The notes under the pieces: generated by a model
The model's database searches: none
The model's input: the letters and a program-made list of their open reading frames with translations, nothing else
What the model was told of the DNA's origin: nothing
Made by a program: the position numbers and the translations under genes
Assembly: GCA_010094025.1 (NCBI GenBank)
Contig: ML991865.1
Location: 1 to 64,000 of the forward strand
Direction: 5' to 3'
Length of the DNA stretch: 64,000 nucleotides
DNA from: Viridothelium virens
Taxonomy: Eukaryota > Ascomycota > Dothideomycetes > Trypetheliales > Trypetheliaceae
Shown here: piece after piece, positions 35,883 to 37,904 of the stretch
Layout of the letters: each line of letters opens with the position of its first letter
How positions within the stretch are numbered: position 1 is the first letter of the stretch

Positions 35883-37904
35883 ATGTTTCCTTTCAATGGC
35901 GCACCACCTCCTTTTCCAAGTGTCTACGAGACGCAGCCTGCCCATCGAACTGAACCGTTTGGGGCCCCCATTTCTCAGCCCCAATCTTCACCCGGTCTCG
36001 CACTACAGCCAACTTCCATCACATCACCAAGTAATCCTGCTCCCAACTCGGACTCTGTAGTATCTTCCGCCACCAAAAGTGCACCTACTAGACCATCAAA
36101 GACCGGCCATGAGACGGCCGCGAAGCTGCGCGCAGACTGGGAGACAGCCTGGGCAAGCCAGTCCATGGCGGTATGTATATGTTCAGTACTTTGAAACCTC
36201 TGCGCTCTTTTGCCTCAAGATCGTCGAAGTTCCCTCTACATTCTTCATTTGCGTCTTCCTGTGTTTGGTGAATGTCCTAGTATCGAGCTTGTTTTCCCTA
36301 CCCCTGGAGAATGTGGTCAGGCAAATCCAAATAATACTTCCAAACTTGGCGTGATGAAAAAGTAGCCTGCATATTCCATCTTCAAGTCCCTCCTAAATCA
36401 GAGCTTACCTTCACATAGCCCCCTCCACCGGCCATGTACAATTCGCGTGAAGAGATGATCGAATCAGCGAAGCATTTCACCAAACGACACGGATATGATC
36501 TCGTTATTGGGCATTCTACTAAAAAGCACGGCGAATTTGCACGTTGCTGGCTTATGTGTGAATTGGGCGGAGAGTATCGAAATCGCCACCACCTTCAGCC
36601 GGGAGATCGTAAGCGTAAGCGGGAGTCACGGAAGACAAATTGTCCCTTTAAGCTGCTAGGATCCAGAAAACGTCATGAGACGCAGTGGCTTCTTTCTGTC
36701 AAGGATGGCAGACACAATCACGATGTCATCTCGAAACCCGGCGAGGAAGAAATTGTTGACTCTGACTTTCCAGATCTGGAAGATGCCTTATACCGATGGC
36801 ACAGAGAGGCTCTGCTCCAAAACAACGATGCCGCAGTCCATGGCAATACTCTCAAAGCCAAGGCGCTGGAATTCTGGCACACTATGCCACAATATCAGAA
36901 CCTTGAACCCCCCGATTTTGGGGGAGATTGGGTCAAGGCTTATCGCCGACGCCACGGCTTCCCCATCAAAATGGTTACCAAGACTCAACACAAGACGTCC
37001 ACCCCTTCCAATCTCACAATGAGCTCCGTTAATGCCCAACGTCTCATGGACGCTACCCAGACTCCGACTCCGACTCCCGTCGTTGATCCTGCACTTGGGA
37101 ATGACACGAATGCCGGTAGTGACTTTCGCCTTCCCCCTTCTGCTACTCGTCTTATTCACGCCTTGCCTGCCGCTAACCAATCCCTCATTAACTCCATTGC
37201 CTCCCACGTTGCTACCGAAATGCGCTACAACGATGCTTCACACGACTTTCTCCACGTCCTTCGCGTCCTGTCTCTCTCTCTGCATATCCTTGCCTCGGAG
37301 TCGTCACCCCCTTCCTCTACTATCTCTAATTACGATCCCACTTCCATCATTCTTGCCGCCCTTCTCCACGACATCGCCGACCGAAAATATATTCCTCCAT
37401 CCGCGACCGCCTCGGCCGAAAATGTCATCGCTGCGACCCTCCTCGACCACGGGAGTTCCGACGCGCTGGCTCTGAAAGTTCAAATGATTGCCCGTAATGT
37501 TAGCTTCAGCGCCGAACAAGCAAATCCGCGCATGAATCGCGCTGTCGTGGGCCAGCATCCGGAATTGGCGGTCGTGCAGGACGCAGATCGGCTGGAGGCG
37601 ATTGGAGCAGTGGGAATTGGCCGGACTTTTACGTACGGGGGTGCGAAGACGGGAGCAGTGGGTCACGCAGGGCGTGGGCTCCAGGACACTCTCGTGCATT
37701 TTGGAGAGAAGTTAGAACGAGTGGAGGCTCTGATGAAGGTGCGTAGTCCCATTCCTACTATGTCTAGATATCTGAAGCATTGAGATAACGGATGCCGACT
37801 CTCTTTAGACTGATACGGGGAGGCGTCTGGCAAGAGAGCGGACCGAAAGATTGGCTGTATTTAAGCAGTGGTGGCAGGAAGAGACGGCGCTTGCTAGCAC
37901 TTAG
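35883..37904 (+). CDS. FAR1-like zinc / CENPB-type HTH / HD-phosphohydrolase fusion protein
   Basis: Predicted 567-aa protein in three exons: 35883-36170, 36419-37738 and 37809-37904 (introns 248 and 70 bp, phase 0). Residues 1-101 are Pro/Ser-rich. Residues ~105-200 look like a FAR1/WRKY-GCM1 zinc DNA-binding domain: Cys139, Cys143, Cys171, His195 and His197 (RCWLMCELGGEYRNR, TNCPFKLLGSRKR, GRHNHDV). Residues ~214-277 resemble a Tc5/CENPB-type helix-turn-helix (LEDALYRWHREALL, KAKALEFW, WVKAYRRRHGF). From Met297 the frame continues into an HD phosphohydrolase of the YedJ type: HDFLHVLRV (371-379), LLHDIADRKY with HD 413-414, and VQDADRLEAIGAVGIGR with Asp484. The last exon adds the family's usual tail TDTGRRLARERTERL. 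Exon 2 carries all three domains without a stop. A separate HD gene starting at 37019 is the main alternative. Confidence 0.7.

Follow-up and report, generated by a model that had tools for sequence, protein, structure and literature searches.

The window analysed here comprises the first 64,000 nucleotides of contig ML991865.1 (C95) of Viridothelium virens, a species of the order Trypetheliales in the class Dothideomycetes which we take to be lichen-forming, and whose genome comprises 30.7 Mb in 175 contigs. At 35883..37904 it carries a gene whose predicted product places a FAR1/AFT-like zinc module and a Tc5/CENP-B-type helix-turn-helix ahead of a YpgQ/YedJ-type HD domain (Table 1). Splicing of the three exons yields a protein of 567 amino acids (aa) ending at a TAG stop, within which the public Viridothelium virens protein EV356DRAFT_510953 is contained letter for letter. 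The public model (P0001; 466 aa) starts at 36434 and does not include exon 1, while its C-terminus and 3' splice match the splice made here. Exon 1 is backed by P0002, P0004, P0008, P0009, P0011 and P0012, in which a [L/Q]RAxWE...PPPPP stretch precedes the zinc module.

Table 1. Exons, introns and predicted protein regions of the fused gene, in positions of the window
Feature	Position	Strand	Remarks
Exon 1	35883..36170	+	Pro/Ser-rich N-terminus, aa 1-96, without Pfam domain; from splicing and relatives
Intron 1	36171..36418	+	GT...AG
Exon 2	36419..37738	+	Open throughout; zinc module, helix-turn-helix, linker and the greater part of the HD domain
FAR1/AFT-like (WRKY-GCM1 type) zinc module	36473..36727	+	Ligands Cys143, Cys171, His195, His197
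Basic cluster RKRKRESRK	36608..36634	+	Possible nuclear localisation signal (inferred)
Tc5/CENP-B-type helix-turn-helix	36767..36961	+	Pfam; match to PDB 1iuf Abp1
Linker	36974..37111	+	Low-confidence, probably flexible; P0001 181-226; contains internal ATG 37019
YpgQ/YedJ-type HD domain	37169..37904	+	P0001 246-466, interrupted by intron 2
Intron 2	37739..37808	+	GT...AG; agrees with public protein P0001
Exon 3	37809..37904	+	C-terminal helix of HD domain, stop TAG

Conservation was assessed in an alignment of 24 rows (A1: P0001-P0020, P0111, P0112, P0114 and P0123, with P0021, P0113 and P0115 left out), among which Tc5, FAR1 and HD matches at E<=0.01 occur in 24/24, 21/24 and 19/24 members, respectively. 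The helix-turn-helix had been called Tc5/CENPB-like from its motifs, and this is confirmed by its HTH_Tnp_Tc5 (PF03221) score of 45.6-47.4 bits against a Pfam cut-off of 22.2 and by the predicted structure. It also matches PDB entry 1iuf, named centromere protein Abp1. The zinc module reaches 23.5-23.6 bits with FAR1 (PF03101; cut-off 28.1) and 17.2 bits with the AFT profile, both below cut-off, while FAR1 scores 31.1 bits in the relative P0113, above it; taken with the predicted structure, the profile match bears out the FAR1-like identity first proposed. Its ligands are conserved in all readable A1 rows (Cys143 and Cys171 each 22/22, His195 and His197 each 24/24), and strands are predicted at 23-31, 34-42, 73-78 and 85-91 of the P0001 model. 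Both the Cys, Cys, His-x-His ligands and the beta-sheet fold of the WRKY-GCM1 type are thus present, the former in the alignment and the latter in the model. Cys139, which the original prediction had also listed, is a Cys in only 8/22 readable rows and is, judged from the alignment, not a zinc ligand. Within the basic cluster R59, R61, S65, R66 and K67 (P0001 numbering) are nearly invariant among the aligned relatives. The best Foldseek match of the zinc module is Aft2 bound to DNA (probability 1.00). The description of both modules as transposase-like is therefore firm for the helix-turn-helix, but the zinc module matches a fungal transcription factor. Pfam revealed no DDE catalytic remnant in the open frames of exon 2 or exon 1, leaving the DNA-binding part only, and neither a MULE transposase nor a SWIM domain in exon 2.

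The HD domain scores 23.0 bits against a Pfam cut-off of 22, and its predicted structure matches the YpgQ-type fold over the whole domain. With 37.6 bits against 286 it misses the cut-off of the NCBIfam YedJ equivalog, and on profile scores it is a relative of YedJ rather than a YedJ equivalog; the YedJ-like label given earlier holds in that sense, and the predicted structure agrees. In the passages of PMC8177086 on Bacillus subtilis YpgQ, the metal residues are H29, H58, D59 and D124, with H25, R136, F140 and H158 nearby. These were placed on the protein through the HMMER alignment, using a fixed shift of six positions, chosen because seven positions then fall on identical residues and F140 on a Tyr. 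The metal residues correspond to His375, His413, Asp414 and Asp486, all identical, so that the claim of an intact H/HD/D set stands, and they are conserved in 23/23, 21/21, 20/21 and 21/21 readable A1 rows, respectively. The nearby residues correspond to His371, Arg498, Tyr502 and His523, of which His371, Arg498 and His523 are invariant in readable rows, while position 502 is Tyr or Phe, with Phe in many relatives. Since the active-site residues are invariant or nearly so, the enzyme is probably a catalytically active one of the YpgQ type. Rows of the structural alignment (VIA-align) cover only the HD part (P0001 217-466), and the lack of zinc or helix-turn-helix rows in it is thus uninformative.

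Exon 2 had been predicted to read through all three modules without a stop, and a frame of this length was open in 0/2000 first-order Markov simulations. The linker alone was open by chance in 95/2000 simulations, and its openness by itself is thus weak evidence; comparison with relatives appears to be the stronger argument for a single gene. In the seven closest rows (P0001-P0007) the protein is continuous across the linker in 7/7. When the N-terminal half was the only query, with lengths limited to about 163-518 aa, eleven proteins were retrieved, ten of which run into the HD domain, while P0113 ends before it. Six of the eleven are fused forms also found by the whole-protein search, and four break off at one common point within the HD domain, which is consistent with a gene caller having halted at an intron. 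Relatives thus keep the two halves together rather than always encoding them as separate genes, and the three-module architecture is almost certainly real.

Several observations weigh against the mechanism proposed further below. The window copy does not reach the FAR1 cut-off, and its similarity to Aft2 is weak, with E 8.6e-3, a target TM score of 0.50 and a root mean square deviation of 13.7. In P0005 a Gly replaces the HD-motif Asp414. The predicted model has a predicted template modelling score of 0.52 and does not fix the mutual placement of the domains, with predicted local distance difference test values <50 at P0001 181-197 and 199-226. Stand-alone short forms of the enzyme are listed for Aspergillus, several Sordariomycetes, Mycosphaerellales and several lichen fungi. 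Finally, the internal ATG at 37019 has an A at -3 and its Met is present in 5/7 closest rows, on which grounds a minor HD-only product starting there is possible. The same ATG, the commonness of stand-alone HD proteins in other fungi and the frequency with which the linker stays open by chance would all suit two adjacent genes, with the HD gene starting at 37019 and the fusion an artefact of annotation or read-through. However, all seven closest rows run through the linker, the Met gives way to Leu in P0003, to Ile in P0004 and to a gap in the other A1 rows, the fusion is found in three or more orders, and all but one of the N-terminal-half matches continue into the HD domain, so that two genes are highly improbable. 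A merger of gene models was likewise rejected, given the fusion in relatives and an internal Met that is not universal among them.

The whole-protein search retrieved 110 proteins, of which P0001-P0021 carry precomputed Tc5 and/or FAR1 domains together with the HD part. Named fused forms belong to the Trypetheliales (Viridothelium, Bogoriella), Acrospermales (Pseudovirgaria), Dothideales (Aureobasidium) and unplaced Dothideomycetes (Cryomyces), with a further one in Bathelium, presumably also of the Trypetheliales. Identity of P0002-P0007 to P0001 over filled columns is 83-92% for residues 1-100 and 65-72% for residues 241-433; by this comparison the N-terminal half is the more conserved. An HD tree was built from 86 segments of 228 proteins, without the fused P0013, P0018, P0020 and P0111-P0115. 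Rows grouped roughly by class, 34/83 inner branches were left open, and weak branches placed rows of Aspergillus, Diaporthe and Acarospora next to the Dothideomycete rows or between them. The Mycosphaerellales-type rows, which lack the fusion, form a clade with support of 99 in this tree and 100/99 in a 48-row tree. The fused rows of the 48-row tree need four changes, and a single fused clade is not rejected (approximately unbiased test, p-AU 0.164). Because the FAR1-Tc5 modules are homologous among the fused rows, one gain of the fusion with later losses appears simplest, and some stand-alone Dothideomycete entries may be truncated gene models. Stand-alone forms were drawn in part from an HD-half search in which 120 of 3645 matches were listed, and most of their assignments to classes of fungi are our assumption.

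Genome-wide searches of the Viridothelium virens contigs scored best candidates only, and within that scope P0001 revealed no stand-alone duplicate elsewhere in the genome. Its other matches were one Tc5-type frame and a place on contig C72 (E 0.177, HD residues 308-427), where the frame is presumably helicase-like by its motifs. A recent transposon insertion was rejected, as several orders share the N-terminal half, which is also the better conserved, and as these best-candidate searches found no other FAR1 match in the genome. Three other places in the same genome carry related domains. A 389-residue frame at C50:16345 (L006 1144-2313) has HTH_ABP1_N and Tc5 domains without DDE or HD by Pfam, and on this domain content is a stand-alone CENP-B-type DNA-binding protein. 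On C81 (L014 4-672, 1081-1983) a Homeobox_KN frame and, after it on the same strand, a Tc5 helix-turn-helix frame perhaps form one homeobox regulator gene. A short frame at C55:199379 (L011 1291-1857), which combines a psq domain with a Tc5 helix-turn-helix, is likely a fragment of a pogo/Tc5-type transposase.

Other DNA-binding modules precede the same enzyme elsewhere among the ascomycetes. A precomputed Clr5 domain is present in 52/110 whole-protein matches, including those of Drepanopeziza (Leotiomycetes) and of Botrytis, Lachnellula and Cadophora, which we take to belong to the same class, and both Clr5 and HD exceeded the Pfam cut-off in 3/3 Clr5 proteins rescanned. Eleven Clr5 rows fall within a supported clade of 13 (support 100), in which the other two, P0023 and P0128, are labelled otherwise. 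The Leotiomycete model shows two three-helix units ahead of the HD domain, and a structure search with it gave HD matches only at E<=0.001. Another supported clade (98; P0090-P0092, P0094 and P0097-P0099, n=7) includes Pseudevernia (Lecanoromycetes) and Teloschistes. Five of its members have HTH_32 matches on rescanning, four at E<=0.0011 and P0098 at 0.081, all below cut-off, while P0092 and P0099 have no Pfam helix-turn-helix match at E<=0.01. P0021 carries a full Abp1-type pair ahead of the HD domain (HTH_ABP1_N 78.2 bits, Tc5 48.4 bits). In profile comparisons the FAR1-Tc5 region matched Abp1-Tc5 with a probability of 98.3, the Tc5 part being in common, and Clr5 and IS630-like regions with 0.2 and 0.1; the values were 10.2 and 0.3 for Abp1-Tc5 against Clr5 and IS630-like, and a weak 60.7 for Clr5 against IS630-like. 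Common ancestry of all fused modules was rejected because the FAR1-Tc5 region showed no detectable relation to the Clr5 and IS630-like regions, and the joining of DNA-binding modules to this enzyme was therefore probably not a single event. Other variations concern the enzyme itself: a long Pro-rich insertion lies between the HD and DADR motifs in the lichen-type P0090, P0091, P0094, P0097 and P0098, an F-box region follows the enzyme in Fusarium P0047 (precomputed Pfam), with a similar end by eye in P0074, and an F-actin-capping beta domain follows it in Penicillium freii P0100, probably a merged gene model.

The common picture of enzymes acting on nucleotide pools is that they move freely in the cytosol or nucleoplasm. 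A fusion of this kind, conserved and recurrent, implies a benefit, either from nucleotide hydrolysis at specific DNA sites or from control of a DNA-bound factor by nucleotide levels, and here it is an enzyme rather than a regulatory domain that has probably captured DNA-binding modules repeatedly. The mechanism tentatively favoured, to which we give slightly less than an even chance, is a DNA-tethered nucleotide pyrophosphohydrolase for local nucleotide removal. It rests on the fused frame, its conservation and the zinc-ligand and active-site residues, with the folds taken from prediction. We infer one nuclear protein, in which the zinc-binding WRKY-GCM1-type module and the CENP-B/Tc5 helix-turn-helix would form a bipartite DNA-binding region, with the flexible linker connecting it to a YpgQ-type HD enzyme in working order. 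With a Mn ion this enzyme would act on (deoxy)nucleoside triphosphates ((d)NTPs), or on a related nucleotide, and yield monophosphate and pyrophosphate, while the N-terminal half would anchor it at particular sites on DNA or chromatin, so that nucleotides would be removed, and their supply controlled, locally.

The higher conservation of the N-terminal half, its best Foldseek match to Aft2 on DNA and the naming of the 1iuf match as a centromere protein would also suit a transcription factor whose HD domain senses nucleotides, with ligand or slow turnover altering its hold on DNA, in the manner of bacterial one-component regulators. This is the main alternative and somewhat unlikely, considering that nearly all readable rows retain the catalytic residues, whereas sensing alone would not require them. 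The occurrence of the same enzyme with unrelated DNA-binding modules, or none, in different lineages indicates that fungi as a whole do not retain one common target site, and would agree with a fusion that merely localises a housekeeping nucleotide-cleaning enzyme to the nucleus or aids its dimerisation, with sequence-specific binding unimportant. Within the Dothideomycetes, however, both modules and the zinc ligands are kept beyond the needs of nuclear import, and this explanation is judged unlikely. Clr5 is a silencing factor in fission yeast. In the passages concerned of PMC10799480, a systematic screen of fungal transposon-host fusions, fission yeast Abp1, Cbh1 and Cbh2 lead to retrotransposon silencing. 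The placement of both Abp1-type and Clr5-type modules ahead of the HD enzyme is no more than suggestive. It is a doubtful but broader conjecture that several ascomycete lineages independently placed the enzyme behind silencing-type (Abp1/CENP-B, Clr5) or transposase (IS630/Tc1) modules, giving chromatin-tethered hydrolases that would lower dNTPs or NTPs locally. If true, these would constitute an undescribed class restraining DNA synthesis or transcription at, for example, mobile elements or centromeres.

No description of an HD fusion with FAR1/Tc5, Clr5 or CENP-B was found in the open-licence literature, a scope outside which supplementary tables lie and where such a fusion may be listed. 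The FAR1-Tc5-HD architecture is absent from the passages of PMC10799480 found by term search, and 'HD domain' is among the terms absent from PMC12062965. The suggestion of a new architecture is thus sustained in so far as it is undescribed in the literature searched, but many copies are already present in public databases. The gene is flanked on one side by PEX16 (minus strand, 314.6 bits) and on the other by an AAA ATPase frame (minus strand, AAA_2 94.1 bits), presumably ClpX-like, and an Rfam search of the window found nothing.

Among known systems, the fission yeast Abp1/CENP-B-type protein (1iuf; HTH_ABP1_N and HTH_Tnp_Tc5) has the Tc5-type helix-turn-helix in common with the Viridothelium virens protein, but its first helix-turn-helix is replaced here by the zinc module, and the HD enzyme presumably occupies the place of the CENP-B-type DDE-type domain. 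SAMHD1 has, to our knowledge, no FAR1, Tc5 or CENP-B module. As described in the passages concerned of PMC8177086, it is an HD-domain hydrolase of dNTPs that also has an extra domain, but differs in being a triphosphohydrolase with a SAM domain and in forming an allosteric tetramer. Yeast Aft2 and plant FAR1/FHY3 share the WRKY-GCM1 beta-sheet zinc module with Cys, Cys and His-x-His, FAR1 being a C2H2-type member of that group in the relevant part of PMC6000157; the protein differs from them in its sub-threshold AFT and FAR1 scores and in the lack of MULE and SWIM matches by Pfam. Bacillus subtilis YpgQ (PDB 5dqv/5dqw), a Mn-dependent nucleotide pyrophosphohydrolase, and E. coli YedJ (3gw7) share the HD fold and C-terminal helix, and all eight active-site positions of YpgQ are matched, with one Phe replaced by Tyr. 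The solved chains of YpgQ and YedJ comprise ~210-240 residues, whereas here ~330 residues precede the enzyme, most of which belong to the DNA-binding modules or to the stretch from exon 1.
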